A stretch of DNA of 64,000 bases. Origin: Sphingomonas jaspsi DSM 18422 (GTDB lineage: Bacteria > Pseudomonadota > Alphaproteobacteria > Sphingomonadales > Sphingomonadaceae). The stretch spans positions 1,361,810 to 1,425,809 of the forward strand of contig NZ_KK073876.1 in assembly GCF_000585415.1 (NCBI RefSeq), in the 5' to 3' direction. Each line of letters begins with the position of its first letter. Within the stretch, counting starts at the first letter, position 1. Of the stretch, positions 7,001 to 49,034 are shown piece after piece. The translations under genes were made by a program, and so were the position numbers. The notes beneath the pieces are model-generated. The model did not search any database. It was given only the letters and a program-made list of their open reading frames with translations, and was not told the origin of the DNA.

Positions 7001-7035
7001 GAAGGGGGCAAGTGACCAAGTCACTCGCCCCCTTC
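7001..7035. repeat. Large hairpin containing dyad site a
   Basis: Two 16-base arms, GAAGGGGGC-A-AGTGAC and GTCACT-C-GCCCCCTTC, pair with a single mismatch around a 3-base loop. There is no T run, so it is not a standard intrinsic terminator. It lies directly between two leftward transcription units. Confidence 0.75.
7012..7024. promoter_or_regulatory. Boundary dyad site a: GTGACCAAGTCAC
   Basis: Perfect 5-bp arms around a 3-base centre. It lies 15 bases past the phosphoesterase stop and upstream of the gapR-int unit. It is the loop-proximal part of a larger hairpin (7001-7035). Confidence 0.7.
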
Positions 7036-7038
7036 GTG

Positions 7039-8019
7039 TCAGGCCGGATGGAGACGTTCGTCGATGAACTCCCGGACGTAGCCGGGCACCTCCTTCAGGT
7101 GTTCGTCGAGGATTGCTTTCCAGTCGAACGTGCCGAGCTTGTCGGCGACCGACGGCTCGTCGTTCTCAAGCTCCGATATGCGCTTGCCAGTGAGCTGCAG
7201 ACAGTCGAGGCCGATCGGGAGCTCGTCGCCATCGCGGAGCAGGACGCGGACAGCCTTGTCACGCAGGTCTGCAGGGTCGGCAGCGGCGAGCTCTTCGACG
7301 GTGAGGGTGACATAGAGGTCTCCGTTCGGGTCTTCGGCGTGGGTGTAGGGCTCCAGCGAGCCGGTGCAGGTCACTTCGACGCCGCCCAGCTTGTAGTCGC
7401 CCTCCAGATGCCAGTGGCCGGTGATGATGCGGGCGTTGGGGAAAAGCTCGCGGATCAGCTGCGCGGGCACCAGGTAGGTGTCGTCGCCGCCGAAGCTCTC
7501 CAGATCGTGGTGCAGGACGACGAGCGGGACGTGCTCGCTCTCTCCCATCGCCTCAATCTGCTCGACGACGGGCTTGCCCCACTGCCACGGTACGCACGCG
7601 ATCTGCTCATAATCGCCGCAGTCGATGAAGGTCGGCTTGTCGACGACCCAGATGTTCGGGTGATCGTCGCCGATCAGGCGACGGAAAAGCTCCCACGCGC
7701 CGATCGAGCCCAGCTGGCGGCTGCGGTCGTGGTTGCCAGCCATTGCGACGTAGGTGCGCTTCGGGTTGTTCTGGGCGGCGTTGAGATAGGCGTCGGTGGC
7801 CTCGAGGATCGTGGTGAGGCTCACCTGCGGGTGGTCGAACAGGTCACCGACCATGATGTTGATGTCGCAGTCGGTGGCCAGCTCGTCCTTGAACTTCTGG
7901 AGCTGACGTGCTTCGCGCTCACCGCGTCGGTCGAGGGGGACCCCCGTCTCGAACTTGCGTCCGAGATGGGGGTCGCCGATCAACCAGACCGTGACGCCGG
8001 AGGGGGTTTCAACTTCCAT
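7039..8019 (-). CDS. Calcineurin-like phosphoesterase (SbcD/Mre11-type nuclease subunit)
   Basis: 326 residues. Shows the metallophosphoesterase series DPHLG, GDLFDH, GNHDRS, a later VVLHHD and GHWH, which bind two metals. By family this is likely a DNA-end processing nuclease like T4 gp47 or SbcD, but no SbcC/gp46 ATPase partner gene is visible nearby. The start at 8019 is preferred: GGGAG sits 5 bases upstream, whereas an in-frame start at 8052 has no ribosome site and would overlap the upstream gene further. Overlaps the cupin gene by 11 bases. Confidence 0.85.
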   Translation of the reverse strand: MEVETPSGVTVWLIGDPHLGRKFETGVPLDRRGEREARQLQKFKDELATDCDINIMVGDLFDHPQVSLTTILEATDAYLNAAQNNPKRTYVAMAGNHDRSRQLGSIGAWELFRRLIGDDHPNIWVVDKPTFIDCGDYEQIACVPWQWGKPVVEQIEAMGESEHVPLVVLHHDLESFGGDDTYLVPAQLIRELFPNARIITGHWHLEGDYKLGGVEVTCTGSLEPYTHAEDPNGDLYVTLTVEELAAADPADLRDKAVRVLLRDGDELPIGLDCLQLTGKRISELENDEPSVADKLGTFDWKAILDEHLKEVPGYVREFIDERLHPA

Positions 8020-8623
8020 GCGGTCTCCCTTCAGGAAATTCCCAGCGGTCACAGACCGTGGTGTCGGAGGCGGGATAGGTGACGGGGATGAAGATGGTCC
8101 CGCCGCTGCCGTCGATTATCGGCTGGAGCATCACAAACTCGTCCGAATGTTCGACGTGCGATTGGAGGCAGCGTCCCTTGTCGACGCAGCCCGCGAGGGT
8201 CAGGCCAGCCGCCGCGGCGGCCGCCAGACCAAACCGGCCGACTTCGCGCCGGCCATTGGTGAGCGTCACGAAGCAGTCCTCGTTGGGGAGGAACTCCCGC
8301 CACGTCGGCATCCACGGCCCGCGGAAGGACAGCACCCAGGTGCGGCCTTCGTCGCTGTCGACCTTGTGGAAATCGCTGCGGCGCGTGACGAACGGGCGCC
8401 AGCTGGGCTCGTGACGGCGAACCGAACCATCGAGCATGGTCTCGGTCAGGCCGCCCTTCAGCACCCAGCTGATGCAGTTGAAGGCGTGATTGTGGAAAGC
8501 CTCGCGGCTCTGGCCGTCGAAGCGAAGCAGCACTGCCGAGCAGAGCCGCTTCGCCTCGAACAGCCAGTAGCCGGTCACGGTGCTTTCCGCGCCGCCGTCC
8601 TTCTCGCGGAAGAACGCCCTCAT
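8009..8623 (-). CDS. Cupin-like protein fused to a lipoprotein-like C-terminal segment
   Basis: 204 residues. Residues 1-127 resemble a small cupin-fold family seen in phages, with likely metal histidines H44, H46 and H86 and a conserved WVLSFRGPW strand. Residues 128-146 then form RREVGRFG plus an alanine-rich hydrophobic run ending in a lipobox LAGC. A 58-residue cysteine-containing domain follows. No ATG, GTG or TTG is in frame at the junction, so the two parts are read as one chain. The biochemical role is unknown. It starts in an ATGA overlap with the exonuclease gene. Confidence 0.7.
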   Translation of the reverse strand: MRAFFREKDGGAESTVTGYWLFEAKRLCSAVLLRFDGQSREAFHNHAFNCISWVLKGGLTETMLDGSVRRHEPSWRPFVTRRSDFHKVDSDEGRTWVLSFRGPWMPTWREFLPNEDCFVTLTNGRREVGRFGLAAAAAAGLTLAGCVDKGRCLQSHVEHSDEFVMLQPIIDGSGGTIFIPVTYPASDTTVCDRWEFPEGRPHGS

Positions 8624-9216
8624 GCGGCCTGATCCTCGGGCGGGAGGATTTCGTGGAAGATGCCGTTCTGCGCGCTGAACAGCTGCTTGAGCTGGTAGAC
8701 GCAGTCGAACAGCGCGTTGTGCTTGTCACCGGCCGGCGGCGTCACCCACGAGAGATCGGGTTCCTTGCCGTCCTGGCGGAACAGGCCCGCCTGATACGAG
8801 CGCAGGTCGCGCGCCTCGTTGAACCTGAACGGCATCGGCATGCCATACTGGTCCATGTAGCTCTGGATGAACCAGAAGTCGAAGGTGCCCCGGCTCCAGA
8901 AGCGGAGCTGGCCGTGGCGGCAGACGAACTCCCAGAACTCGCGGATCACGAGGCTGGGCTCTTCGGCGGCGGCGAGGATGCCGCGCAGGATTTCCGGCTT
9001 CTGCTGGCCCCACCAGCGCCGCGTTCCTTCGTCCCAGAAGCGGTTGGCGGGCAGTTCGAGGCAGCGGTTGAACGGCTGGCCGACGGCGCCCGTCTTCAGA
9101 TTGAAGGGCAGCGCGGCGAGCTGGATCATGCCGGTGTGGTAGGGGTTGGTGCCGGTCGTCTCGATGTCGACCATCAGGTCGGTCAGCGGCTCGTCAGACA
9201 GGCGAGCGATCATCAT
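8620..9216 (-). CDS. DEDD-family 3'-5' exonuclease (DnaQ-like fold)
   Basis: 198 residues. Motif I is VDIETTG (D17, E19); the middle aspartate lies in GTFDFWFIQ; HNALFDC supplies the DEDDh histidine and last aspartate. It probably trims DNA or RNA 3' ends in phage replication or recombination. The start at 9216 shares ATGA with the upstream nuclease gene; an in-frame start 90 bases further up lies within that gene and is unlikely. Confidence 0.8.
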   Translation of the reverse strand: MMIARLSDEPLTDLMVDIETTGTNPYHTGMIQLAALPFNLKTGAVGQPFNRCLELPANRFWDEGTRRWWGQQKPEILRGILAAAEEPSLVIREFWEFVCRHGQLRFWSRGTFDFWFIQSYMDQYGMPMPFRFNEARDLRSYQAGLFRQDGKEPDLSWVTPPAGDKHNALFDCVYQLKQLFSAQNGIFHEILPPEDQAA

Positions 9217-9620
9217 AGGGTCCACGGGGTCAGGTCCTTGAATTTGACGGACTTGGCGCCGTCGGCACACAGGGCAGCGAACTGCTGCTCCCGCATGACG
9301 AACCACTCGCCGAGGCCGTAGCTGAAGATGTAGAAGTCGTAGCGACCGCCGACGCGGGCCATCTTGAGCGCCGCAGCGCGCTGCGACGGCCGGATGTCAG
9401 CGAACGGGAAGCTCGTCGCGCTCTGGACCGACTTGACCTCCGCGTAGAAGGTCTGCTGGTCCTTGGTGACGAGATAGTCCGAGGGCTTCGGGAAGTCGCC
9501 GACCTTGCGCCCACCGTTCAATCCGGTGAGCGCCTTCTTGTCGGGGAAACGGTAGAGATCGTCAGCGCCTATGCGGAGCTCAAACGCCTTTTCCGCCGCG
9601 GTGCCGTCATTCGACGCCAT
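9213..9620 (-). CDS. Probable PD-(D/E)XK nuclease (Holliday-junction-resolvase-like)
   Basis: About 135 residues. The pattern PSDYLVT followed by FYAEVKS fits the D-(X)n-E-X-K active site. The early NDGTAAEKAFE helix is typical of RecU/VRR-like folds. Likely resolves branched DNA or processes ends. The start is uncertain: ATG at 9620 or 9632, both overlapping the membrane-protein gene upstream. Its neighbours are nucleases, consistent with a recombination module. Confidence 0.6.
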   Translation of the reverse strand: MASNDGTAAEKAFELRIGADDLYRFPDKKALTGLNGGRKVGDFPKPSDYLVTKDQQTFYAEVKSVQSATSFPFADIRPSQRAAALKMARVGGRYDFYIFSYGLGEWFVMREQQFAALCADGAKSVKFKDLTPWTL

Positions 9621-9828
9621 CGTCGTCCGCATCCTTGAACGCCATCACAAGCGCGAACAGCGTCAGCAGGACGAAGAACATGCGGCACCCGGTCGTCCAT
9701 GCGGCCGGGTTCATGTCCCAGCTGACGAAGGCGGTGACGAGGTAGGCGGCGGCGACGATGATGGCGCTCGCGAAAAGCACGGCGAGTGCATAGATGGAGC
9801 GGCTCACCTGCTCCTGGTTGTCGTTCAT
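9607..9828 (-). CDS. Small two-helix membrane protein
   Basis: 73 residues with two hydrophobic helices (about 11-32 and 46-65) separated by a short loop, and an acidic tail DADDDG. No family recognised. First gene of its leftward unit. Its ribosome site (GAGGAA) lies in the right arm of a perfect hairpin. Confidence 0.65.
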   Translation of the reverse strand: MNDNQEQVSRSIYALAVLFASAIIVAAAYLVTAFVSWDMNPAAWTTGCRMFFVLLTLFALVMAFKDADDDGVE

Positions 9829-9833
9829 AAATG

Positions 9834-9861
9834 GGGGTTCCTCATATCGTTGAGGAACCCC
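9834..9861 (-). promoter_or_regulatory. Hairpin that buries the ribosome site of the membrane-protein gene
   Basis: Perfect 11-bp stem GGGGTTCCTCA / TGAGGAACCCC with a 6-base loop. Read leftward, the only good Shine-Dalgarno sequence for the ATG at 9828 (GAGGAA) is inside the right arm, so folding would block translation. It could act as a translational switch, or as a terminator lacking a T run. Confidence 0.65.
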
Positions 9862-9903
9862 AGTAAGCTCACGGAGTCCGACGCTGCACGGACATAGGCG
9901 GGA

Positions 9904-9916
9904 GTGACTTAGTCAG
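9904..9916. promoter_or_regulatory. Boundary dyad site b: GTGACTTAGTCAG
   Basis: The stop codon (TAA on the minus strand) of the 54-residue gene at 9909-10073 lies inside this dyad. Confidence 0.7.
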
Positions 9917-10073
9917 TCGGCTCGAGGATGCGATCGCCCACCAACCAAGGGCCCTTGTCGGGGTCGGCGAGCGTGCCGATAAAGTGCCAGGTCGAGCCGT
10001 TGAAAGCCGCCGGCTCCCAATCGTCGCTCTCGTCGTTGAATTTCGTCCAGTAGAAGCCGGGTTCGCGTTCCAA
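9909..10073 (-). CDS. Small hypothetical protein, TTG start
   Basis: 54 residues, acidic, Trp-rich (FYWTKFN, DWEPAAFN, STWHFIG). The TTG at 10073 follows AGAGGAAA within the end of the upstream gene and is the best start; the longer ATG frame runs antisense-like through the neighbour. The style recalls small phage proteins of the DUF551 type, but this is only a resemblance. Last gene of the polymerase unit; its stop is embedded in dyad b. Confidence 0.55.
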   Translation of the reverse strand: MEREPGFYWTKFNDESDDWEPAAFNGSTWHFIGTLADPDKGPWLVGDRILEPTD

Positions 10074-10074
10074 A

Positions 10075-10374
10075 TTATTTCCTCTTGAGGCTGACCCGCT
10101 GGCTGCGGGCCGCGAGCCTCGCCACGGAGCGGCGGGGCACGACATATTCGTTGGTCAGGATCATGGGGGCGCGCCCTTCGACGACGCCCCCGGTGTGCGG
10201 GATGGTTTTGTTCTCGGTGGCGAAGTCGATCAGCTGCTTGGCCGCTTTCTCGACTAGCTGCTTCGCCATGTTGCCGATCACCTTGTCGGTGAAGTCGGCA
10301 ACCGTCTTGCGATCGAGGCCGGTCTTCTCGACCAGCTCGTCGATCAGCTTCTCGTGTTCAGCGGTGCGCGTCAT
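10075..10374 (-). CDS. Small basic protein, possibly HU-like
   Basis: 99 residues. The first 35 (EKLIDELVEKTGLDRKTV and on) resemble the N-terminal helices of HU/IHF proteins, and the C-terminus is strongly basic (VPRRSVARLAARSQRVSLKRK in two parts). The beta-arm signature of HU is not clear, so DNA binding is an inference. ATGA overlap with the DNA polymerase gene suggests co-translation with the replisome. Confidence 0.5.
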   Translation of the reverse strand: MTRTAEHEKLIDELVEKTGLDRKTVADFTDKVIGNMAKQLVEKAAKQLIDFATENKTIPHTGGVVEGRAPMILTNEYVVPRRSVARLAARSQRVSLKRK

Positions 10375-13058
10375 GCTGCCATCCTTGCATCTGCGACGAA
10401 CTTGACGACACGAGCCACGATGTCGTCGGTGAGAGCCGACCCCTCCAGCTCTTTGGCGATCAGTCCCTCGATATGCGGGGCTTCGTCAAGTTCGATCTGG
10501 CTGAAGGCCGGGTTCTTCTCGTCGTAGGGCTTGAACGTCCGCCCGACCGAGACCGTGCAATGCAGCGGCAGCGTCGGGTAGAGGTCCTTGTGGTCAGTCA
10601 TGCACCAGCGCAGGACCGGAATGAACTCCGGCACTAGGTCGCGATGGACCGACCAGACGAGCTCGTCGTGGATCGGCACCATGAAGCGGACCTTGCCCTG
10701 CCAGCCGCGACGTTCGATCTCCGCGAGCACCCGCAGGATCGCCCGCTTGGCGAGCGCGGCGCAGCTGCCCTGAACCTTGCCGTTGACGGCCTGGTTCTTC
10801 GCGCGGCTCTGGATGCGCTTCAGCGCCAGCTCGGCGTAGGCCAGCATTGCGGGGGACGCCGAGATGTCGGCGAACTTCCGCATCATGCAGGCGTGCCAGG
10901 CCGGCGTGGCTTCGAGGCGAACGCGGCGATGGTGGTCAGGCAGCTGCACGAAGCCATATTCCACGGCCTCCTGCTGCGTGCGGACCCGCCACGCCTCGGC
11001 GAGAGGGAAACGAGTGCGGTAGCGGTCGACCGCTTCCCACATCTCGTCCGGGGACCAGCCGAGGTTCATGCCGACGGTCGAGAGCGAGCCGGAATACCAG
11101 TAGTTGAAGTTGGCGCCCTTGCCGACCGGCGTGCCGCGGGTCAGCTTGTGGAAGTCCTTGGGCGTCATCTCCTGGCCGGTGAAGATGTGCTTCAGCACAC
11201 GATTGTTCGGGTTCCGGCCGAACTTGAACTCGCGATATTCCTCCTCGGTCAGGCCAGGGAGTGTCTTCACCGCGAGGCAGTCCGCTGCGGCGCCCGAGTG
11301 CAAGTCGCCGTAGGGCAGCTGGCCGAACACTTCGCGAAAGCCGTGGTCACCGCTCTTCTCGCCGATGTCGACCAGCTCAATCGACGACCAATCGGCCGAC
11401 ACGACCAGATGGTCCTCGTCGTCGCCGAGATAGAAGCCCCGGACATATTTGCTTTCGGAATACTTCGAGATCGCCATGACGTTCGGGAACGAGATGGCCA
11501 TGCGGCGCGTCGCCAGCATCGAGGACAGCGACGGGTAGACCCGACTGGTCTCGGGGTCCATCAGCTGCGTGTAGGGCGTCAGGTAGAGCTTCACGGTCTG
11601 CTCGACGTCCGCCATGCGCTGATAAGCCTTGAGGACCTCGATCGCCCGCTCGTCGCCGGCCTTCTCGGCCTTGAGCAGCATCTTGCCGCGCGCTTCCTTG
11701 TCGGTGCTGATCTCGCCGTCGAGATAGACGAGCGGCAGACCCATCAGGTCGTGCAGGATCATCCGCATGCCCTGGTAGTAGACCGGGTTGAGGCGGTTGG
11801 CGGGGGTCTTGACGCCGCGCTCGTTGGCCCACGCGTCGCCGACCGGGTTGGCCGACTGGATCAGCTGCTCGAAATCGTCGGCGCTGTTGGGCGAGTTCGC
11901 CCAGTCCTCGATCCGCTTCCGCAGCTTCTTCCAGTTGTCCTTCGAGGCGCCTGTGTCCTTGTCGTAGCCCTCATACCATTTGCCCTGCTTCTCGATGAGC
12001 TTGGCGTTCGGTTCGTCGGGGAACGGCAGGTAGGCTTTGACGAGCGGCTTGAAGCTGCGGAGAACGTCGGCCATCGCCGCGCGCTCCATGTCGCGACGGG
12101 TGTAGACCTCGGAGAGGTCCAGCCGCATGCCTTCACGCCAGCTGTCGGCGAACACCTTCACCATCGGATTTTCCTGGGTGAGGAAAGTCTTCAGGAGCTC
12201 GGGGTTCGACCGGAGCATGTCGTCCTTGAGGTGCTGGAAGACGCGGACGGCCCAGTAGGCGTCGTCGGCGCCGTATTCCACGACCTGCTCGCCGGTCAGC
12301 TGGCCCATGTGGGTCGCGCCGGCCTTCTTCAGGACCTCGTCGTAAGTCGTCATCTTGAACCCGAACAGGCTCTGGACGAGCTTCTTCAGGTTGTAGCCGA
12401 AGGCGATCTCGCTGACGAAGCCGTTGTAGCTGTGCGCCGCGGTCGAGGTCTTGCCGATGAAGAGCGACAGCAGCTCCTGCTGCTCGCTCGACAGGCTCCG
12501 GCCGCGCGTCTCCGGATCGTAATTGGCGAAGGCCCGCTCGATGTTGCGGGTGTGCTTCGCGAAATTGGTCAGCGGCGTCGCGTAGAAGATCTGCGGATCG
12601 TACTCGTCGGGGCCGTGGTGGCTCACCGCCAGCTGCAGGGTGCAGAGGACGTTCGCCAGCTTCACGCCGAGGCACTGCTGGAACATGCACAGTTCGAACG
12701 GCGCGTTGTGCGCGAGGATCAGCGCGTCTTCGCGGATCGCCGAGAGCAGCACGTCAGCCTTGCGGCGCGGCAGGCGGTTCTCGACGTCGGCGTGGGCCAG
12801 GTTGACATACCAGGCGGTGTCCGACCCCTCGGCGTAGAACGAGAAGCCGGTCATCGTCGTGCGGCGATGATCGAACACCCACCGCTTCTTGTTGCGGTAG
12901 TTCTGGATGCCCTCGTGGGCGGTGTCTTCGTCGGTGGTTTCGCAGTCGAGACCAAGGACGACGGCGGTCTCGAGATCGTCGAGCGCCTGTTGAAAGTCCG
13001 CTTCGGAGGACCGCTTATCTAGCAGTCGGCTGGCAATATGCACGCAGGTATTCCTCAT
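10371..13058 (-). CDS. Family A DNA polymerase with 3'-5' exonuclease domain
   Basis: 895 residues; the phage replicative polymerase (T7/Pol I type). Exonuclease motifs: LDCETTD (D38, E40), AHNAPFE (116-122) and YGADDAYW (Y262, D266). Polymerase motif A is SADWSSIEL (D556), motif B is RGTPVGKGANF (641-651), and motif C is IHDE (796-799). No 5' nuclease domain is fused; that activity is the separate gene upstream. An alternative GTG start at 13043 has a better ribosome site (GAGGAA) and would drop five residues. Next to FEN, helicase and other replisome genes. Confidence 0.95.
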   Translation of the reverse strand: MRNTCVHIASRLLDKRSSEADFQQALDDLETAVVLGLDCETTDEDTAHEGIQNYRNKKRWVFDHRRTTMTGFSFYAEGSDTAWYVNLAHADVENRLPRRKADVLLSAIREDALILAHNAPFELCMFQQCLGVKLANVLCTLQLAVSHHGPDEYDPQIFYATPLTNFAKHTRNIERAFANYDPETRGRSLSSEQQELLSLFIGKTSTAAHSYNGFVSEIAFGYNLKKLVQSLFGFKMTTYDEVLKKAGATHMGQLTGEQVVEYGADDAYWAVRVFQHLKDDMLRSNPELLKTFLTQENPMVKVFADSWREGMRLDLSEVYTRRDMERAAMADVLRSFKPLVKAYLPFPDEPNAKLIEKQGKWYEGYDKDTGASKDNWKKLRKRIEDWANSPNSADDFEQLIQSANPVGDAWANERGVKTPANRLNPVYYQGMRMILHDLMGLPLVYLDGEISTDKEARGKMLLKAEKAGDERAIEVLKAYQRMADVEQTVKLYLTPYTQLMDPETSRVYPSLSSMLATRRMAISFPNVMAISKYSESKYVRGFYLGDDEDHLVVSADWSSIELVDIGEKSGDHGFREVFGQLPYGDLHSGAAADCLAVKTLPGLTEEEYREFKFGRNPNNRVLKHIFTGQEMTPKDFHKLTRGTPVGKGANFNYWYSGSLSTVGMNLGWSPDEMWEAVDRYRTRFPLAEAWRVRTQQEAVEYGFVQLPDHHRRVRLEATPAWHACMMRKFADISASPAMLAYAELALKRIQSRAKNQAVNGKVQGSCAALAKRAILRVLAEIERRGWQGKVRFMVPIHDELVWSVHRDLVPEFIPVLRWCMTDHKDLYPTLPLHCTVSVGRTFKPYDEKNPAFSQIELDEAPHIEGLIAKELEGSALTDDIVARVVKFVADARMAA

Positions 13059-15304: not shown

Positions 15305-15393
15305 ATAAATGTCTTTCGTTTCTGAATTGGAGCGACGTTGCTCGAAAGTCTCATTGAGCCTCGGCGCTCTAATTTTCCAATGTTGTTGAAGAA

Positions 15394-15406
15394 GTGACTG
15401 AGTCAG
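15394..15406. promoter_or_regulatory. Boundary dyad site c: GTGACTGAGTCAG
   Basis: Begins three bases beyond the helicase stop codon and about 90 bases upstream of the gene starting at 15304. Separates the helicase unit from the polymerase unit. Confidence 0.7.
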
Positions 15407-15409
15407 ATG

Positions 15410-19169: not shown

Positions 19170-19185
19170 GTGTGCTCCAAATGCA

Positions 19186-19231: not shown

Positions 19232-20227
19232 TCAGGGCAACTGACTGGGTCTCTTGTCGAAACGGCTCCAGCTGTCCTGCCAGTTGCCGCTCACCGCCGC
19301 CTTCGAGTATTCCGTCGCGCGGTTCTCGAAGAAGTTGGTGTGCTCGACCCCGTTGAGCAGCGGGATCAGCCACGGCAGCGGATGCTCGGTGATGCCGAAG
19401 ATCGGCGCCATCTTGAGCTGCTGCAGACGCCAGTCGGTGATGAACCGGACATAACGCTTCACGTCGCCCGCGGTCATCCCCTCGACCGGCCCCATCGCGA
19501 AGGCCAGGTCAACGAAGGCGTCTTCCATCTCGACCACCTTGACGGCGTGCTCGCGGATGCGCTCGATCACCGTCGGCGTCAGCGCGCCGGTCTCGCGAGC
19601 GAACTCGTGGAACAGGCGGATGATGCCTTCGCAGTGCAGGCTCTCGTCGCGGACGGACCAGCTGACGATCTGCCCCATGCCCTTCATCTTGTTGAAGCGC
19701 GGGAAGTTCATCAGCATGGCGAACGAGGCGAAGAGCTGCACGCCCTCGGTGAAGCCACCGAACATCGCCAGCGTCGTCAGGATGTCCTCGTTCGAGGACA
19801 TGCTGAACTGCTGCCCATAATCATGTTTCTCCTTCATGGCCTCGTATTCCATGAAGGCTTGGTATTCGGCTTCCGGCATCCCGACGGTATCGAGCAGGTG
19901 GCTGTAGGCCGCGATGTGGATCGTCTCCATCGCGCTGAACGAGGTGAGCATCATCTGCACCTCGGTCGGTTTGAAGACGCCCAGATACCGCTGCATGTAG
20001 CAGCTGGCGACGTCGATGTCGGCTTGGGTGAAGAAGCGGAAAATCTGCGTGAGCAGGTTCTTTTCGGCGGGAGTGACGTTCTGCGCCCAGTCACGCACGT
20101 CCTCGCCAAGGGGGACTTCCTCGGGGAGCCAGTGGATCTGATTTTGCAGCTTCCAATAGTCGAACGCGAAGGGATAGCGGAACGGCTTGTAGGCCGTCGA
20201 TGCGGTCAGCAGACCGGGCTTAGACAC
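19232..20227 (-). CDS. nrdB: Ribonucleotide reductase class I beta subunit
   Basis: 331 residues from a GTG at 20227, chosen because GGAG lies nine bases upstream within the end of the HNH gene. An ATG at 20242 has no ribosome site. Di-iron and radical residues are present: E101 and H104 in ETIH, the radical tyrosine Y108, a later E in FTEGVQLF and the pair in RDESLH. Generates the tyrosyl radical used by NrdA to make dNTPs. Its last codons contain dyad d. Confidence 0.93.
   Translation of the reverse strand: MSKPGLLTASTAYKPFRYPFAFDYWKLQNQIHWLPEEVPLGEDVRDWAQNVTPAEKNLLTQIFRFFTQADIDVASCYMQRYLGVFKPTEVQMMLTSFSAMETIHIAAYSHLLDTVGMPEAEYQAFMEYEAMKEKHDYGQQFSMSSNEDILTTLAMFGGFTEGVQLFASFAMLMNFPRFNKMKGMGQIVSWSVRDESLHCEGIIRLFHEFARETGALTPTVIERIREHAVKVVEMEDAFVDLAFAMGPVEGMTAGDVKRYVRFITDWRLQQLKMAPIFGITEHPLPWLIPLLNGVEHTNFFENRATEYSKAAVSGNWQDSWSRFDKRPSQLP
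19241..19253. promoter_or_regulatory. Boundary dyad site d (degenerate): CTGACTGGGTCTC
   Basis: Falls within the last codons of nrdB at the boundary to the HD-MazG-helicase unit. Weaker match than the other sites (two arm mismatches), constrained by coding. Confidence 0.4.
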
Positions 20228-22513: not shown

Positions 22514-22521
22514 ATTGACGA

Positions 22522-22534
22522 GTGACTGGGTTAC
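22522..22534. promoter_or_regulatory. Boundary dyad site e: GTGACTGGGTTAC
   Basis: The TAA stop of the small gene at 22531 lies inside the dyad. Separates the regulator unit from the nrd unit. Confidence 0.65.
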
Positions 22535-22725
22535 TTGGCGGTGGTGGACCGCTTCGTGGCGTAGTGCTGGTTAAGCACGGTGTTGATCCGCGCCACCATG
22601 CGCGGGGGAAGCTGCTTTTTCTTGAGCTCTTCCAGGTCCATAATAGCAGCGCCCCGAGCGAGTTGTCGCTCGGAGCGCCTGAAACGATGGACTGCTTTGA
22701 AGTAGGTGGTCAGATGTTCAAGCAA
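22531..22725 (-). CDS. Small basic hypothetical protein
   Basis: 64 residues from a TTG at 22725 (AAGG seven bases upstream), or 36 from an ATG at 22641. The second half MDLEELKKKQLPPRMVARINTVL is helical and basic. A 12-bp hairpin lies just upstream of the internal ATG, which could mean that the shorter protein is the real product with its own leader. No family recognised. Confidence 0.5.
   Translation of the reverse strand: MLEHLTTYFKAVHRFRRSERQLARGAAIMDLEELKKKQLPPRMVARINTVLNQHYATKRSTTAK
22649..22678 (-). repeat. Hairpin within or ahead of the small gene at 22531
   Basis: 12-bp stem GCGCTCCGAGCG / CGCTCGGGGCGC (leftward) around a 6-base loop, with one G-U pair only in the leftward RNA. 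Ends eight bases before an ATG. Confidence 0.55.
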
Positions 22726-23216
22726 CGGCGCACCTTTTCGAATTGCTCCGCGGACAGAAGATTGCGGAGCATCATGACCGTGAAGTCCTGACCTGTCGAG
22801 GCCGCGAGGCGCTCGAGTTGCGATAAACGGAAGTCGTGCTGGCCACCGCGCTGCGAGGCCAGCAGCTGCTGGGCCTGCGTGAGACCCGTATCGCGCGACA
22901 CCTCGAGCTGGTGCCGGCCGGGGGCGTTGCGGTAGTCGTAGACGACGTTCGCCATATTGTTGCGGAAGGTGCGACTGGCATCAGACAGCCGCGGCGGCGT
23001 AGATTGCGGATCGGGGGTATACTCGATGCCGTATTCGGCAGCTAGGCGTCGAGTGGCCTTACGGCAGTAGTCAGGCTCAAGGCCCTCCAGCTCGGCGATT
23101 GCTGCGACCGGGCGGCCTTGACGCATTGCCGTGATGATGCGTTCATCACGTTCATCCAACAGGGTTTTCCGCTGATCGCCCCTGCTAACTTCTGTCCGTT
23201 TCTCCACTCCAAACAT
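22710..23216 (-). CDS. Putative helix-turn-helix regulator
   Basis: 168 residues. An N-terminal helical unit (RIITAMRQGRPVAAIAELEG) looks like a homeodomain-like reader, and residues 95-145 (LEVSRDTGLTQAQQLL, then FRLSQLERLAASTG) resemble a Cro/CI-type HTH. One of four candidate lysogeny or lytic regulators in the prophage. No peptidase or dimerisation domain of a CI repressor is visible. Confidence 0.5.
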   Translation of the reverse strand: MFGVEKRTEVSRGDQRKTLLDERDERIITAMRQGRPVAAIAELEGLEPDYCRKATRRLAAEYGIEYTPDPQSTPPRLSDASRTFRNNMANVVYDYRNAPGRHQLEVSRDTGLTQAQQLLASQRGGQHDFRLSQLERLAASTGQDFTVMMLRNLLSAEQFEKVRRCLNI

Positions 23217-23487: not shown

Positions 23488-23535
23488 AGTCTCCCTAAAC
23501 CAGCGGATATGACTCCGCGTCACCGGATCGCCGAA

Positions 23536-23548
23536 GTGACCAGGTCAC
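23536..23548. promoter_or_regulatory. Boundary dyad site f: GTGACCAGGTCAC
   Basis: Perfect arms. In the 162-base gap between the winged-helix gene (stop 23650) and the gene starting at 23487. A weaker hairpin (AGCCCC/GGGGCT, 23567-23593) lies between it and the upstream stop. Confidence 0.7.
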
Positions 23549-23649
23549 ATGTTACATCTTTTACAGAGCCCCTCCCCGGGCTGGGTTGGGGCTTTGCGAA
23601 TAAACTGCTGTGGGGACAATGAAATTTTCCCGCACGTTGCGGTTAACGG

Positions 23650-31970: not shown

Positions 31971-31999
31971 GCGCGGTTTGTTGAGATGCTGTGGAGGAA

Positions 32000-32012
32000 G
32001 TGACTTAGTCGG
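32000..32012. promoter_or_regulatory. Boundary dyad site g: GTGACTTAGTCGG
   Basis: The TAA stop of the small gene ending at 32005 is inside the dyad. One arm mismatch. Separates the small-gene unit from the rII unit. Confidence 0.65.
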
Positions 32013-32199
32013 TTGCGAGACGGGGCCGGCGGGTCAGGTGCCAGTCCAGGTGATCCGCACTGAGCGGCTTCTCATTGTCGTTGTCGAAGTCGCTATCGAT
32101 CGTGTCGCGGCTGAAGTTCTTGACTTGGGAGCCCATGAAAAATGAGCGACGGGCGTGATAGGCTGAGGTCGACGACGGACGGGTCATGATGACGTTCAC
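32005..32199 (-). CDS. Small polar hypothetical protein
   Basis: 64 residues from a GTG at 32199 (GAGG seven bases upstream), or 60 from an ATG at 32187. Ser/Asp/Asn-rich with a basic N-terminus (TSAYHARRSF) and FDNDNEKPLSADHL. Two bases separate it from the upstream stop. Its stop is embedded in dyad g. Function unknown. Confidence 0.55.
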   Translation of the reverse strand: MNVIMTRPSSTSAYHARRSFFMGSQVKNFSRDTIDSDFDNDNEKPLSADHLDWHLTRRPRLATD

Positions 32200-38469: not shown

Positions 38470-38518
38470 GACCCTTCCTTTCAGAGGTCGGGCGGGTTGG
38501 GCAGAGGGAACGGAGGTA

Positions 38519-38531
38519 GTGACCAGGTCAC
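38519..38531. promoter_or_regulatory. Boundary dyad site h: GTGACCAGGTCAC
   Basis: Perfect arms. The TGA stop of the gene at 38528 lies inside. Divides the long small-gene array into two units. Confidence 0.7.
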
Positions 38532-38671
38532 TTGCTGTGGGCGCGCTCCCAATAGGCATGCAGCCCCGGCTGGGTGATCTGGTCGTAGGGGTTGGGCGTG
38601 CTGCGCCGGGCCTTGCGGCCGCGGCGCGCGGCGACGGAATAGCTGATGCTGTCGAGCGTCGACTTACGCAT
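38528..38671 (-). CDS. Very small basic protein
   Basis: 47 residues, Arg/Ser-rich (ISYSVAARRGRKARRSTPNP). Start in TGATG with the upstream gene; stop within dyad h. Possibly nucleic-acid binding by charge only. Confidence 0.55.
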   Translation of the reverse strand: MRKSTLDSISYSVAARRGRKARRSTPNPYDQITQPGLHAYWERAHSK

Positions 38672-42909: not shown

Positions 42910-42958
42910 GAGAAACAGTTAGTTAGACTATCCTTGGGTGAGGGGGATTTGATGGGAT

Positions 42959-42974: not shown

Positions 42975-43027
42975 CTGTCCGCTCCCAGAAAGTGGGAAAT
43001 TTCGCTAACAGTTGGGATTGGGGACAA

Positions 43028-43040
43028 GTGACCTAGTCAC
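43028..43040. promoter_or_regulatory. Boundary dyad site i: GTGACCTAGTCAC
   Basis: Perfect arms, 11 bases past the stop of the HTH gene at 43052. Confidence 0.7.
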
Positions 43041-43051
43041 TCGAAAAAATC

Positions 43052-43465
43052 CTATAAGGCGCGAGTCCGACCACGGGCCGCAACCAGCCGCACACCGGTC
43101 AAAGGGTCGAAAATGACGTTTCGCCGCCACCGCCAGACCTTTTTCGGGTGAACACCCAGTTCACGGGCAATGGCCGCGGCCGACCTCTTGTCGTTCTTGA
43201 GGTCGAGCTGCGTCCACAGCGGCGCGGCACCGGCATAGTCCGGACACACGGCGGCGATCATCTTCAAACCATCTCCTGGGAGGAGGCTTTCTGCGAGCAC
43301 CTGGCCCTCGGCCGGGTCGGCGGCGTCGATCATATTGGTCAGACCCTTGCGGGCCTTGGGACCGATGCCGCCGAGCGCGTAGACCCACTCTATAGGAATA
43401 CCGGGCGTCGTCGCGAGCAGCACGAGGTCTGCCCGCGACGGGCGCTTAAGCAGTTTCGAGAGCAA
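43052..43465 (-). CDS. Putative DNA-binding protein with C-terminal HTH
   Basis: 137 residues. A C-terminal helix-turn-helix (SAAAIARELGVHPKKVWRWRRN, in outline) followed by a basic tail; N-terminal domain helical. Resolvase- or Sak-like HTH placement. It sits next to the AT-rich control region and both palindrome families, making it a candidate regulator of early genes. Confidence 0.5.
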   Translation of the reverse strand: MLSKLLKRPSRADLVLLATTPGIPIEWVYALGGIGPKARKGLTNMIDAADPAEGQVLAESLLPGDGLKMIAAVCPDYAGAAPLWTQLDLKNDKRSAAAIARELGVHPKKVWRWRRNVIFDPLTGVRLVAARGRTRAL

Positions 43466-43709: not shown

Positions 43710-43823
43710 GGCAAAGTCCTCCTGTGGCCGGGCGCACGAGCGGCCGGCGAATGTTGAAACGTGGTTGGTTGGTGACGCTGGAACTGTCCTAAAATCCGGC
43801 GGGCGTCATCCACCGGTAGGGCA

Positions 43824-43836
43824 AGTGACTAGGTCA
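43824..43836. promoter_or_regulatory. Boundary dyad site j: GTGACTAGGTCAC
   Basis: Perfect arms. The TGA stop of the membrane-protein gene (43834-43836) is inside. The remaining 43,710-43,823 holds no gene. Confidence 0.7.
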
Positions 43837-44031
43837 CTTGATGCGAGCGAGATCCTTGCGGAGCGCGCGAAAGACGAGGGCCGAGGCGGTGCCGTAGGCG
43901 ACGACGTTGAGGCCGCAGGCGGCGAGGATCATCAGGGGCGGGCGCTCGAGCGCGACCACGACCGAGACCACGACCGTGGCGAGGCAGAGCAGCGCCATCG
44001 CGCCGCCGACGAGGATGACGAGCTTACGCAT
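43834..44031 (-). CDS. Small two-helix membrane protein
   Basis: 65 residues with two hydrophobic helices (LVILVGGAMALLCLATVVVS; LMILAACGLNVVAYGTASAL) and a basic tail. No family recognised; a holin is possible by shape but the location among early genes argues against it. Confidence 0.6.
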   Translation of the reverse strand: MRKLVILVGGAMALLCLATVVVSVVVALERPPLMILAACGLNVVAYGTASALVFRALRKDLARIK

Positions 44032-44173: not shown

Positions 44174-44188
44174 GTCGTTCACTCCAAT

Positions 44189-44210
44189 AAAAAACCCCGC
44201 CGAAGCGGGG
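44189..44210 (-). terminator. Intrinsic terminator, UUCG tetraloop
   Basis: CCCCGC-TTCG-GCGGGG followed by six T's on the minus strand, 30 bases past the stop of the gene at 44240. Confidence 0.9.
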
Positions 44211-44220
44211 TGAGGTTGGT

Positions 44221-44236
44221 TTGGGAAATTTCCCAA
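44221..44236. repeat. Palindrome TTGGGAAATTTCCCAA, copy 2
   Basis: Perfect 16-bp dyad, three bases past the stop codon of the gene at 44240 and ahead of the terminator. Confidence 0.8.
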
Positions 44237-44239
44237 AAT

Positions 44240-44722: not shown

Positions 44723-44779
44723 AACGGCCTCCAGATAAAGCAGGGTCAGGGGAAGGGGCGGCGCGCGTCCCTTGCCATG

Positions 44780-44811
44780 ACCCTGCTTTGGGAAATTTCC
44801 CAAAGCAGGGT
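44780..44811. repeat. 32-bp perfect palindrome containing copy 3 of TTGGGAAATTTCCCAA
   Basis: Both halves of 44780-44811 are exact reverse complements with no loop. The inner 16 bp (44788-44803) is the recurrent dyad; the flanks ACCCTGCT/AGCAGGGT extend it. Intergenic between the genes at 44821 and 44722. Confidence 0.9.
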
Positions 44812-44820
44812 TGCGGGCGA

Positions 44821-45534
44821 TTAACCGTTGACGGCTTCGGCTTCGGCTTCGCCTTCGGCTTCAAGGGCGCGATTTTCCGCCGCGCGGATGGCTTCCATCA
44901 GGGCGAACAACGCCTTGTCGGCCGCAATGACTTCGGCAACGTCGGCTTCGGCAAGGCGAAGCGCCAGTCGCTCGGCCATGACGGCAAGCGGAGTCGTCGC
45001 AACCGCTTCGCCCGTCGCTTCGCCTTCGCCTTCGCCTTCGCCTTCGCCTTCGCCTTCGCCTTCGCCTTCCGCTTCGCCCTTGTCGGCCTTGGCGGCTTCG
45101 CGGCGCATCGCGGCCATTTCATCGCGCAAGGCATAAAGCGACTTCGGCGCATCGGGCGATGCGGTGATGAACGCCACCAGTCGCGGCTTGAACGTGTCGG
45201 CGATGCGGCCCGCTTCGGCTGCTTCAATCATTTCCAGACACAGCGTCGCTGCCTTGCGGACGGCATCGCCACCCTTGGCATAGCGAAGCGATGAGAGGCT
45301 ATCGCCCGCCTTGCCGTTCGGCTTTTTCGGCTTGAACGTGGCGAGCAAGGCAGCCGTCAAGTCGCCTTCGGTCATCGCCTTGGTGTAGAGGCCGAACAGG
45401 GTTGCTTGCCCCCATGCCGAACGGGCATTCTCGCTAGCGACTTCTTTCTGGCGTAGGGCTTCGGTCGTGACGGCATAGTCGGCTGCATTGAAAGCTTCAG
45501 CCGAAAGGGCAATGGTGCTGGTTTCATTGGTCAT
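44821..45534 (-). CDS. Hypothetical protein with Gly-Glu repeat
   Basis: 237 residues from the ATG at 45534 (AAAGGAAA upstream). Helical N-terminal domain (about 1-130), a linker of eight GE dipeptides, then a helical C-terminal domain rich in Ala/Glu. The linker is encoded by a perfect hexanucleotide repeat. No family recognised; a copy of the 16-bp palindrome lies 27 bases upstream. Confidence 0.65.
   Translation of the reverse strand: MTNETSTIALSAEAFNAADYAVTTEALRQKEVASENARSAWGQATLFGLYTKAMTEGDLTAALLATFKPKKPNGKAGDSLSSLRYAKGGDAVRKAATLCLEMIEAAEAGRIADTFKPRLVAFITASPDAPKSLYALRDEMAAMRREAAKADKGEAEGEGEGEGEGEGEGEGEATGEAVATTPLAVMAERLALRLAEADVAEVIAADKALFALMEAIRAAENRALEAEGEAEAEAVNG
45019..45066. repeat. 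Tandem hexanucleotide repeat (TTCGCC)8
   Basis: Eight exact 6-base copies within the gene at 44821, encoding (GE)8. Unit length is a multiple of three, so copy-number change alters linker length without a frameshift. Confidence 0.95.
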
Positions 45535-45561
45535 GGTATCGTTTCCTTTTCCGTTGCTGCC

Positions 45562-45577
45562 TTGGGAAATTTCCCAA
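45562..45577. repeat. Palindrome TTGGGAAATTTCCCAA, copy 4
   Basis: Perfect 16-bp dyad, 27 bases upstream of the ATG at 45534, a classic operator position. Confidence 0.8.
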
Positions 45578-45935
45578 AGGCCGTTGGCATGAGACGGGCA
45601 CGCGCCGAGGCCGAGCGAGAGGACAGTCCCGCGCGCTTCAGACATAGCTAGCCCCAACCCCTTCGGGGTTTGGGTGGGCGTTGCGCCTCGCTGTGTGTTC
45701 CGTCTCATGCGATTGTTCTGACAGAAACAGTGACCACTAAAAGAAAAACTTCTCATGCCATAGTAACACACCCCGATAGGTGACTAAATGACGTGTCAAG
45801 CACTAAGAAACCTTTGTTTTCAGGCACTTAGGCCGGAAGGGTGCCACCTTTTTTGCCCCAGATTTTTTCACTTAGAGGGAGATCATGCCCCAAATATCCC
45901 GGGGAAATTTTCGCGTTTTTCTAATCCACAACTAC

Positions 45936-45974
45936 GAAAAAGGGGCCGAGAACGTGTCTCGACCCCTTGTTTTT
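45936..45974 (-). terminator. Terminator after the primase gene
   Basis: Stem AAGGGG-CGAGA / TCTCG-CCCCTT with one internal mismatch and a 5-base loop; T runs flank both sides, so it may work in both directions. It starts 19 bases past the primase stop. Confidence 0.85.
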
Positions 45975-45992
45975 GTTCAAAACCGCGCTGTT

Positions 45993-48440
45993 TTAGGCAG
46001 CTTTGGCCAGAGTAGGCACAGTAACCTTCAATCCGACGACTTTGTCGCGCGTCACGAGCATCTCGTCCTGATATTCGATCACCCGGTAGCCCAGGCCCTC
46101 GAGCATCGTCTTGAACCGCTCGAAGGTGACGCCCATGCCGCGGCTGACATCCTTCATGTAGAAGAGATACTGGTCGAACACCGTGCGGCAGTCCGCGACC
46201 GAGGCTTCGTCCGGACGGACGCGCTCGCACGACTGCAGGAACGCGGCCACGCTGTTGTTCGAGCGGAGCACCAGGTTCTCCAGCCGCTTGTGCGACTTGG
46301 GCAAGGTATATTCCCGCTGCTCCAGCAGACGCTTCAAGCCGTCGACCGCCCACGCGGCGATCGCCTCGCGCTCTTCCGAGATCACGACCTCGGCGAAGTT
46401 CAGGATGCGCTCGCTCTCGGGGACCTTCCTCGTGAACTCGAAGATGATCCAGCGGCGGATGAAGCCATCCGAGGTGTCGCGCGAGCGCGGCAGGTGGTTC
46501 GAGGCGAACCAGTGCGCCGCCATCGGCGGGAACGTGAACCCGTCCTTGCCCTTGTATTCGGTGTCCTGGCGCTCGCCGCAGACGATCCCCTTGAACCGCT
46601 CGCCCGCGATCATCGCGTCTTCCGGCAGCTCGCCGCAGACGTTGAGCACCTTGCCGACCAGAGCCGTCAGCGCGAACCGCTCGCCCCATTTGTGCGGGGG
46701 TAGGGCGCAGACCGCGTTGTCGGGCATCATCGCGTCGAGGATTTCCAGCACCTGGCTCTTGCCGGTCTTGCCCGGGCCGTAGAGCAGGATCGCGCGCTGA
46801 TACTCCGGCGCGATGCCGAACATGGTGGCCGCGATGACCTCCTGCAGCGCCGCGACCTTCTCGTTGTAGTCGGCGTCATCGCCCCACGCGCTCTCCAGCA
46901 TGCCGAGGAAGCGGTGGCACTCGTGGCGGCGCTCGGGGATGTAGTTGAACGGCAGGGTGAACGTCTTGCCGAAGTGCGGCGCGTGGTCGTGCAGCTGCAG
47001 CGACATGTCGAGGAAGCCGTTGGCGAAGTTGATGCCGAGCTCCGGATTTTCCTCCAGCGGCATGTTGACCAGCGCGCTGATCGTCTTGACGATCGACGCA
47101 TAGTCGTTGTGGCGCCGCGCCAGCGCGTTGCCCTTCACCCGCTCCGCGATGTGGCGGTAGATGTCGTTGTCGTCGAGCATCCCGAAGCACGACCCGTTCC
47201 ACTGCCAGAAGGCACCCTGGTCGTGACGCAGCTCGCCGCCGCGCGAGATGTCCTCGATCACCATGCGGGCGATCGCCTCATGATCTTCCGCCGCCCCGTC
47301 GCCGGAGCCGACGCGGGCCATGACGAACATCTTCTTGAGGGCGGGCTTCGACATCTTCACCGCCCCGAGGGCATTGACCAGCACCGGGATCAGCGCGTCG
47401 AAGTGGTGCTCGGCGAACTGCTCGTCCTTCGCGACCTGAGCCACCAGCTCCTCGACCTTGGTCAGCGCCCAGTCGTCGTCGGCGGGCTTCGCCGAGACCT
47501 GCTCGTTGATCCAGTCGCGGGCGCGGGAGAAGGTCCAGCGTTCCGCCTTGTTCTTCTCGGCGATCGCCGCGATCGTCGGGTGGGCCAGCTGCTCTTCGGT
47601 GAGACCCGCGTCCCAGCCTTCCGGCAGCGTACGGCCGCCTTCGATGTCCTTCAGCAGGAACTCGAGCAGTTTCGCGATGCCCTTCTGGGGGTCCATGTCA
47701 TCACCCGCGACGCCCGCGGTGAAATTCTCGACCCAGTGGTGCATGTGCTGCATCGCTTCCGACAGCGACCACTTCTCGTTCTTGTCGAGACCGAACACGA
47801 CGCGCGCCAGGTAGCCCGCGTGGCGGACCAGCTGAATATCACGCTCGCCGGCCGGGACGACGTCGAGCGGCTTCGAGCGCCCCTCGTGGGCGAGCGACAC
47901 GCCGCCCTTGACGCCGAGCGCCTCGCGCAGCTGCGTCTCGATGGTCACCGGCAGCACCGGGATTTTGTCCATCACCTCCCACAGGTTGGTGTTGGCGGTA
48001 TACGCCTCGCCCGTATCGGGGTGGATCGACGGCGGCAGCACCATCTGGTTGCCCAGACCGAGGAACTCGCAGATCATCCCCTCGTCCGAGCGGATTTTGA
48101 AGTTCTTCTGGCCCTGCCAGCGGTAAATCAGCGCGCAGCCCTTCGCACCGACACGGCGCCACGGGGTCATCGGGAGGCAGTCCTCGATGATCTCGACCAG
48201 CTCGGGGTCGGTGGTGTCGATGTCGATCGCGCACAGGCCCGAGGCAGGACCGAACGGCAGGCCGATGTTCGAGCGGGGGTAGGTTTCCAGCCAGTGGCCG
48301 CGGACGGCCGCGGACGGCATGTTGGTGCCATACTGGGTCCACTCCGACAGGATCGGAGCCTTGCTGCGGACCTTGAGCGGCATGGCGGGGAGACCCGCCT
48401 CCCAGTAGAGCGGGGCAAATTCACGGAAGACGTTGGACAT
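45993..48440 (-). CDS. Primase-helicase: AEP prim-pol plus D5/SF3 helicase
   Basis: 815 residues. The N-terminal prim-pol (about 1-190) has the metal motif AIDIDT and the later SIHPDTG. The middle is a D5_N-like helical region. The C-terminal SF3 helicase (about 520-740) has Walker A YGPGKTGKS and the FASNHLPRSRD ... FIRRWIIFEF sensor/arginine-finger region. Initiates and unwinds at the phage origin. It pairs with the separate polymerase. Own terminator downstream. Confidence 0.93.
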   Translation of the reverse strand: MSNVFREFAPLYWEAGLPAMPLKVRSKAPILSEWTQYGTNMPSAAVRGHWLETYPRSNIGLPFGPASGLCAIDIDTTDPELVEIIEDCLPMTPWRRVGAKGCALIYRWQGQKNFKIRSDEGMICEFLGLGNQMVLPPSIHPDTGEAYTANTNLWEVMDKIPVLPVTIETQLREALGVKGGVSLAHEGRSKPLDVVPAGERDIQLVRHAGYLARVVFGLDKNEKWSLSEAMQHMHHWVENFTAGVAGDDMDPQKGIAKLLEFLLKDIEGGRTLPEGWDAGLTEEQLAHPTIAAIAEKNKAERWTFSRARDWINEQVSAKPADDDWALTKVEELVAQVAKDEQFAEHHFDALIPVLVNALGAVKMSKPALKKMFVMARVGSGDGAAEDHEAIARMVIEDISRGGELRHDQGAFWQWNGSCFGMLDDNDIYRHIAERVKGNALARRHNDYASIVKTISALVNMPLEENPELGINFANGFLDMSLQLHDHAPHFGKTFTLPFNYIPERRHECHRFLGMLESAWGDDADYNEKVAALQEVIAATMFGIAPEYQRAILLYGPGKTGKSQVLEILDAMMPDNAVCALPPHKWGERFALTALVGKVLNVCGELPEDAMIAGERFKGIVCGERQDTEYKGKDGFTFPPMAAHWFASNHLPRSRDTSDGFIRRWIIFEFTRKVPESERILNFAEVVISEEREAIAAWAVDGLKRLLEQREYTLPKSHKRLENLVLRSNNSVAAFLQSCERVRPDEASVADCRTVFDQYLFYMKDVSRGMGVTFERFKTMLEGLGYRVIEYQDEMLVTRDKVVGLKVTVPTLAKAA

Positions 48441-48443
48441 GGG

Positions 48444-48971
48444 TTAGCTCCGGAAGGGCTCGAGGCGCTTGAGAAATTCGTCCCGCTTTTCGTCGGGCAC
48501 GAGGTCGTCGAGGATGCCGACGACGGTGGACTGGAAGGTCGCGACCTTGCGGACGGATGCGAACCGCTCGCGGATGGAGACCAGCTTCTCCATCAAGGTC
48601 GTCTGGGTCTTGATGATCGTCAGCTTGGTCGACGTGTCGAGGTTCTTCAGCTCGCCGTCGGCATCCTTGCCCAGCTCGCGCAGTTCCTTGAGCAATTCCT
48701 TCGCCTCGGTTTCGAGCTCGACCGCGTCATCGTCGGTGATCTCGCCCGACTTCTTGGGCCGGCCGACCTGGCCGCGGGTGGGCTTGTCGATATATTTCTC
48801 GACGATCACCTCGATCTCCTTGGGCTGGAACAGCTTTTCGAGGAGCGCGACAGTGTCGTTGTCGTAGGGGCAGTCCGGCTTGCGAAGGAACCCGGGGGTT
48901 GCGTCGCACTGTGCCTTGAGATCGGCGAGGCCAGACAGCACGCCGAGGCGAAGGGTGGGGTAGTTGCTCAT
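48444..48971 (-). CDS. Coiled-coil protein upstream of the primase; possible small terminase
   Basis: 175 residues from the ATG at 48971 (a GTG six bases upstream is an alternative). The N-terminal region has GRPKKSGEITDDD, a DNA-binding-like AT-hook motif, followed by a long coiled coil (ETEAKELLKELRELGKDAD) and a terminal helical domain. The layout and place beside the large terminase gene would suit a small terminase, but it is read the other way with the primase. Undecided. Confidence 0.45.
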   Translation of the reverse strand: MSNYPTLRLGVLSGLADLKAQCDATPGFLRKPDCPYDNDTVALLEKLFQPKEIEVIVEKYIDKPTRGQVGRPKKSGEITDDDAVELETEAKELLKELRELGKDADGELKNLDTSTKLTIIKTQTTLMEKLVSIRERFASVRKVATFQSTVVGILDDLVPDEKRDEFLKRLEPFRS

Positions 48972-49021
48972 GCCCACCCTATGCCCCTCGGCCGGAAATT
49001 TTCTCCAGCCAACTTTTTGAA

Positions 49022-49034
49022 GTGACTCAGTCAG
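49022..49034. promoter_or_regulatory. Boundary dyad site k: GTGACTCAGTCAG
   Basis: Lies in the 128-base divergent region between the leftward primase unit and the rightward virion arm. A further TCAGTCACC half site follows directly. Confidence 0.65.

Follow-up and report, generated by a model that had tools for sequence, protein, structure and literature searches.

Dispersed palindromic sites, probable operators of a phage master regulator, across a Sphingomonas jaspsi prophage

The chromosome of Sphingomonas jaspsi DSM 18422 contains a prophage in which a single palindrome of 17-19 bp is repeated 14 times, nearly always at borders between apparent transcription units. The analysis concerns a window of 64,000 nucleotides (contig NZ_KK073876.1, positions 1,361,810 to 1,425,809); coordinates of the prophage are those of the window, continued to its right where the prophage extends beyond it. 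The repeats are best explained as dispersed DNA operators through which the phage exerts master control, most likely by its lysogeny repressor, a reading to which the sequence comparisons described below give a probability of roughly 0.6.

The prophage and its repeated site

A 57-bp direct repeat occurs at 5264-5320, where it covers the 3′ part of a tRNA-Val gene (5237-5311), and again at 83054-83110. Therefore, the element is one prophage of 77.8 kb integrated at a tRNA gene, and the 14 sites span nearly all of it. The relatives of its primase and terminase that top the search lists come from Caulobacter phage Seuss, Achromobacter phage JWF, Xylophilus phage Lumi, Acinetobacter phages and others, all of 77-85 kb.

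An earlier, sequence-only reading had described a 13-bp dyad at eleven places in the window. All eleven copies are present, five with perfect 5-bp arms as claimed, and ten are where they had been placed, the other starting at 43825 rather than 43824. The motif is real, but its signal is not in the 13-bp unit: the loose 13-mer GTGACNNNGTCAC, with up to two mismatches, was found 36 times against 36.8 expected in shuffles, which is chance level, and counting it as signal was dropped. The conserved unit is CRAGTGACYNRGTCACTYG, an odd-centred palindrome of 17-19 bp whose central YNR is itself symmetric in the alignment of the eleven sites. A position weight matrix (PWM) of this extended unit was used instead, built from 11 of the 14 prophage sites. 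These score 22.6-29.7 bits in the given orientation and the best non-member scores 14.1, all in-sample; the scores of the three prophage sites beyond the right edge of the window, and of those in the other records, are out-of-sample, except for one divergent relative, G410, which was given its own PWM.

The sites are nearly confined to the prophage. A scan of the whole 2.55-Mb chromosome with the 18-mer, allowing up to three mismatches, returned 27 rows at 15 places, 13 of which lie in the prophage, within 76 kb; the remaining two (88811 and 2478045) have three mismatches each, and the reversed pattern, as a control, returned 3 rows. The perfect 13-mer is found at eight places in the chromosome, seven in the prophage and one outside (2326917). 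The fourteenth prophage site, at 78818, is not caught by the 18-mer pattern, yet has a perfect 13-mer core. Of the 397 host-family genomes, three others contain the exact 15-mer, once each. One motif is repeated across a phage genome at unit borders, with the units inferred from gene order, and is rare elsewhere; the sequence-only reading had expected it to be less frequent inside genes and in the host chromosome than between units, and it is rare in both. No report of the motif was found among the literature matches listed (the best 10 of 126 for Sphingomonadaceae prophage repressors).

Conservation in related phages

An exact 17-mer scan of viral contigs returned 39 stretches, of which 20, in 13 records, were examined further; the other 19, with one palindrome each, lie outside the comparison. 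Site and family counts leave out G404, which overlaps G405 and G399, and G408, which has one site, together with records near-identical to G397 or G398 (G401, G402, G403, G406 and G407) or to G400 (G409). Scores above 15 are reached by 20 sites in G397 (82.2 kb, with an 87-bp terminal repeat), by 17 in G398 (81.4 kb, with a 109-bp terminal repeat), by 8, 3 and 5 in the overlapping records G405, G404 and G399, and by 5 in G400. As had been expected of related phages, the site is kept at homologous boundaries, divergent gaps included.

The word itself shifts in one more distant relative. G410 (81.6 kb) is absent among the exact 17-mer matches and was reached via relatives of two conserved proteins; its unit borders have near-matches in which the half-sites are GTTAC and GTAAC, frequently combined with a GTGAC half-site. 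Such a shift is the trace that would be expected of a trans-acting DNA-binding protein with drifting specificity.

In Seuss, which is more distant, no sequence scores above 10.9 with the site PWM. Its genome (KT001914) has a different repeated dyad, TTTACC-N3-GGTAAA, at 717, 1515, 68938, 76122 and 82486; two of the copies are repeated in the terminal repeat, and the dyads lie near annotated gene starts and Shine-Dalgarno sites. This dyad may be another dispersed control element.

Placement of the sites

The centres of 13 of the 14 prophage sites lie outside gene interiors, a class of sequence that makes up 8.8% of the element (p=2.6e-13). The same is true of 20/20 sites in G397, 16/17 in G398, 7/8 in G405 and 16/16 in G410. 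Only the site at 19238 is inside a called gene, at its 3′ end, and the other 13 are intergenic or overlap a stop codon; two of the sites occupy divergent gaps. The sequence-only reading had placed the sites in the leftward arm only, but three more are found to the right of the window, the last two bordering the lysis operon. Its statement that the virion arm is free of sites holds for this prophage, where none scores above 12 at 49-78 kb, but not for the relatives, which have some there (G397 20059 and 30541; G398 31842). Because the rightward operon at 80838-82938 starts with a homolog of the Seuss endolysin, sites 80817 and 82932 look like brackets around the lysis operon. In four genomes, a conserved site ends 2 nt ahead of the start codon of the endolysin homolog.

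Spacing to the flanking genes was compared in ten tandem families, each from at least three genomes; these distances, like the gap counts given below, rest on the author's own gene caller. By standard deviation, the distance to the start codon is tighter than the distance to the stop codon in 6 families and looser in 4. The tightest site-to-start families have 68 nt in 4 of 4 genomes, 63-67 nt, 62-66 nt and 70-74 nt, and the divergent primase gap, outside the ten, has 41-47 nt. The start choices at G397 74654, G397 55425 and G398 6855 look wrong and widen the spread of two families, but were kept in the counts. Since stop codons can occur within the motif in two frames, the stop distances pile up at -7 and -12. 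Given this mixed spacing, the sites belong to the junction, and spacing does not decide which side is served.

DNA site or RNA element

Base changes within the arms were examined in 56 sites at tandem boundaries, with G410 excluded for its different word. At the outer G-C pair of the core, 15 sites have C.C instead and 4 have G.G; none of these 19 changes is compensated. Because arm mismatches are never compensated within the motif core, these comparisons identify the repeat as a DNA site rather than an RNA hairpin, and the hairpin reading was rejected for the core. The RNA processing site that had been offered as an alternative is disfavoured on the same ground. It is very improbable that the repeat acts as some other RNA element, whether a nut- or put-like antitermination signal or a terminator stem. 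Its dyad symmetry and the adjacent hairpins would suit such an element, as would the GapR boundary, where the motif is inside a longer stem and where, by eye, a compensated pair lies immediately beyond the motif in G398. Yet a site between divergent genes may lie outside any transcript, and several G410 sites read GTGAC..GTAAC, with one pair broken.

The two arms are not equally conserved. The far (5′) arm deviates more in 17 of the 56 sites and the near (3′) arm in 3, with 36 equal; by families the split is 7 to 2 of 28, the arm nearer the downstream gene being the better preserved.

Hairpins, as judged by eye, overlap the sites in places. The 60 nt past the site has a folding z below -2, from mononucleotide shuffles, in 19/45 cases vs 9/65 site-free gaps (p=0.0004), and the sequence just upstream in 9/45. 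The raw folding energy past sites equals that of the control gaps, with a median of -16.8 in both. Canonical terminators are not in excess over shuffles, with 12 against 14.3 in 7000-26900 and 11 against 16.3 in 30000-49100. At some unit starts (22444-22519, 9828-9901 and 78751-78818), hairpins of the form GGTTCC..GGAGAACC can be seen by eye just ahead of the first start codon, and in several families the Shine-Dalgarno sequence appears to be within the 3′ arm of such a hairpin; translational control by these structures is possible.

Candidate regulator and control region

The best candidate for a protein that binds the sites is encoded at 22710-23216. In its predicted structure, the C-terminal domain is a five-helix, lambda-like domain of Cro/CI-like fold. 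In the G410 version, two residues differ (T110I/T113I; TGLTQ is invariant in the 22 aligned sequences); the substitutions fit the shift of the G410 word, but are one event among many differences. No relative of the candidate was found in INPHARED at E<=0.01 or confirmed among 211 pattern stretches in genome contigs, where the primase also had no relative (7 stretches). The Stoperator-domain structures 7R6R and 7TZ1 are absent among the structure matches listed for the protein, which does not exclude their presence among its matches. A different protein, 43446-43709, had been favoured as the regulator for its conservation and was dropped; the PDB matches to it, mostly helical bundles, are weak, with a best E of 0.24.

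An AT-rich segment next to a site, present in six genomes, contains a TTAATTCATCYG-like box, which has an invariant core TTCAT and is followed by A-rich runs (window 42829-43024; G397 50296-50668; G400 6160-6410). Five relatives have two to five sites around this segment and this prophage has one; in G397, three copies are contained in a 61-bp tandem repeat at 50296-50436. From its composition and sites, the segment looks like the main early control region. At 44194-44211, on the minus strand, there is a canonical intrinsic terminator, ACCCCGCTTCGGCGGGGT followed by TTTTT, at a boundary that is site-free in the prophage and has several sites in relatives.

Operators and the alternatives

As operators, the repeats would allow one phage-encoded regulator to govern many units of a temperate phage together, including the lysis operon and the primase/terminase pair as well as the early and replication units. 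The regulator would most likely be the master repressor of the lysogen, bound as a dimer to the palindrome. A dimer at or just upstream of a unit start would block initiation, and may also stop polymerase arriving from upstream; the 22710-23216 protein would repress itself via site 23533. The sites in divergent gaps and the near-constant start distance in several families fit promoter operators. Because the site is common to early, lysis and primase/terminase units, and ends 2 nt from the endolysin start, silencing suits it better than activation.

Several observations weigh against this reading. Between 6.5 and 49.1 kb, a site is found in 11 of the 21 gaps of at least 35 bp and is missing from the other 10, such that the earlier claim of a site at nearly every boundary was too strong. 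By median deviation, the start distance is the tighter in 4 of the ten tandem families, the looser in 5 and tied in 1. A hairpin accompanies site 82932 at the close of the lysis operon, and on that strand the site is followed by no unit. No consensus sigma-70 promoter overlaps a site in the scanned stretches, 7000-26900 and 30000-49100, and thus an operator placed over a promoter rests on spacing, which is mixed. That scan found 4 and 5 such promoters vs 2.7 and 2.1 in shuffles, the nearest of which begins 63 nt past site 31997 and extends into the gene. The predicted structure of the candidate regulator has a pTM (predicted template modelling score) of 0.59, and the protein has no family match in Pfam, PHROGs or NCBIfam, also at E<=0.1, and no Foldseek match at E<=0.001. 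The site ahead of its gene is not the top-scoring one in this prophage or in G405, and there are other helix-turn-helix (HTH) candidates at 43052-43465 and, by eye, at 14265-14603.

With clearly lower probability, the sites could be true stoperators, at which the bound protein would block elongation at unit ends, besides or instead of initiation. The sequence-only reading had proposed an equivalent of the stoperator system; the dispersed, symmetric and phage-specific regulatory site is well supported, and a stop of elongation is a possible role of it. The better preservation of the arm nearer the downstream gene, the frequent contact of sites with the upstream stop codon, the enrichment of hairpins past sites and the position of site 82932 with its hairpin at the end of the lysis operon are consistent with stoperators, and cluster A repressors, in their published description, likewise combine two DNA-binding domains within a single short protein (PMC9283540). 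In that description, cluster A sites are asymmetric and monomer-bound, whereas those here are near-symmetric. Furthermore, two sites are in divergent gaps without an incoming unit, and the stops in two frames of the motif alone make open reading frames (ORFs) end there. The hairpin enrichment comes from mononucleotide shuffles, with equal raw folding energy and no excess of canonical terminators. Given symmetric sites, as against the asymmetric sites of cluster A, the system is named a dispersed-operator regulon, most likely that of a repressor. It is rather doubtful that this is a stoperator system evolved independently of mycobacteriophages, in which one short protein with two fused HTH domains, on near-symmetric but polar sites, would block initiation as well as elongation and so silence a 78-kb prophage, and in which words diverging from GTGAC to GTTAC/GTAAC would give separate immunity groups.

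Phage P2 activates transcription through Ogr, and in a similar manner the dyad, some 55 bp ahead of weak promoters, might be bound by a phage activator that switches all units on after infection. This seems unlikely. In its favour, no consensus promoters are found at sites in the scanned stretches, and in two families a TTGRGA/TTGGAC-N17-YTWAYT pair is seen by eye at a fixed distance past the site, such that the dyad would be located near -55. At 33-35 nt past the site there is an excess of TTA (4.5 of 23 families, with a mean of 0.58 per 3-nt bin), but this bin is not unique, a count of 4.2 being reached 80 nt ahead of the site end, and the -10-like YTTAST at +33-36 was set aside as weak; in the primase family, the TTAGGG at +33-36 adjoins the start codon. 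The promoter-like pair is visible in few families, and a spacing of 46-48 nt with a Shine-Dalgarno sequence leaves little room for it in others. The sites at the endolysin start and the lysis end are ill-suited to activation, and arrays of 2-5 sites around the control region suit a repressor better.

Phage N15 has dispersed partition sites, and palindromes dispersed outside gene interiors recall such centromere-like or DNA-organising sites. That the repeats have this function is hardly credible, given that the phage, inserted at a tRNA gene, needs no partition as a prophage, and that in several families the sites keep a near-constant distance from start codons.

Features of the prophage

The sites and the genes near them are listed in Table 1. 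The first gene past site 7009 (6696-6941, minus strand) encodes a GapR-like DNA-binding protein (PF10073) with homologs in G397, G398 and G405. Beside the left attachment site, attL, a gene on the minus strand (5336-6544) encodes a 402-aa protein with homologs in G397 (63%) and G398 (77%); it has no match in Pfam, PHROGs or NCBIfam and, by eye, resembles a divergent tyrosine-recombinase integrase.

Table 1. Palindromic sites and associated genes of the prophage, in window coordinates (RNR, ribonucleotide reductase)
Feature	Coordinates	Strand	Context
Site	7009..7027	-	67 nt before GapR-like gene 6696-6941; within longer near-perfect stem
Site	9901..9919	-	overlaps stop of 9909-10073; 72 nt ahead of start of 9607-9828
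Site	15391..15409	-	behind 15410-17113 (weakly helicase-like); 86 nt ahead of 14603-15304
Site	19238..19256	-	weakest of the 11; inside 3′ end of 19232-20227; 68 nt before 18609-19169
Gene	19232-20227		homolog of Seuss RNR small subunit
Site	22519..22537	-	74 nt ahead of RNR large subunit gene 20672-22444
Site	23533..23551	-	heads unit with candidate regulator; leader of ~320 nt with small ORF
Candidate master regulator	22710..23216	-	168 aa; predicted N-terminal HTH and C-terminal Cro/CI-like HTH
Site	31997..32015	-	70 nt ahead of 29788-31926 (homolog of Seuss rIIA)
Site	38516..38534	-	46 nt ahead of 38320-38469
Site	43025..43043	-	upstream edge of AT-rich putative control region 42829-43024 with TTAATTCATCYG-like box
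Site	43822..43840	-	top score; 112 nt ahead of unit 43446-43709 + 43052-43465
Second DNA-binding candidate	43052..43465	-	HTH_23-like C-terminus, below Pfam cut-off
Site	49019..49037		divergent gap between primase operon (-) and terminase gene (+)
Sites right of window	78818, 80817, 82932		

Comparison with known systems

The CI and Cro operators of phage lambda are odd-centred palindromes of 17 bp, as are the sites described here, and the candidate regulator has a Cro/CI-like predicted fold. Lambda has six operators in one region, whereas the 14 sites here are spread over 78 kb.

For phage P1, the published account describes one repressor, C1, with 22 widely dispersed operators of 17-bp consensus that repress lytic genes (PMC8546580). 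The likeness is in the use of one motif, on a 17-bp scale, dispersed over the whole phage genome. The P1 consensus in that account is asymmetric and of other sequence, and P1 lysogens are plasmids, whereas the prophage here is integrated. In SPbeta, a repeated element, SPBRE, is described in promoter regions across the prophage under one master repressor, MrpR (PMC10516654). A repeated element across a prophage is common to both, with the master-repressor part proposed for the present system. As described there, MrpR is similar to tyrosine recombinases and has a motif of 15 bp, whereas the candidate here has two predicted HTH domains.

The repressors of mycobacteriophage cluster A are described as binding both operators and elongation-blocking stoperators via two DNA-binding domains; L5 and TipsytheTRex have more than 20 dispersed sites, mostly in one orientation, and the motifs diverge with the repressors among relatives (PMC9283540, PMC6550527). 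Dispersed sites, a word that diverges among relatives and two DNA-binding domains in a short protein (here predicted) are shared features. The cluster A sites in these accounts are 13-bp, asymmetric and monomer-bound, as opposed to an odd-centred palindrome here. Instead of the asymmetric sites of an L5-type system, near-palindromic sites were found, without strict orientation relative to transcription and with the arm polarity given above.

Control of a whole prophage via one dispersed operator is known from few phages, namely P1, SPbeta and mycobacteriophage cluster A. If the proposed reading is correct, a group of temperate phages of about 80 kb, related to Caulobacter phage Seuss, would be added to these. 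Because several relatives have one word and one has a shifted word, co-evolution of repressor and operator, and superinfection immunity, could be tested in this group, for which a candidate protein, small and distinctive, and the exact positions of 14 targets are already named.

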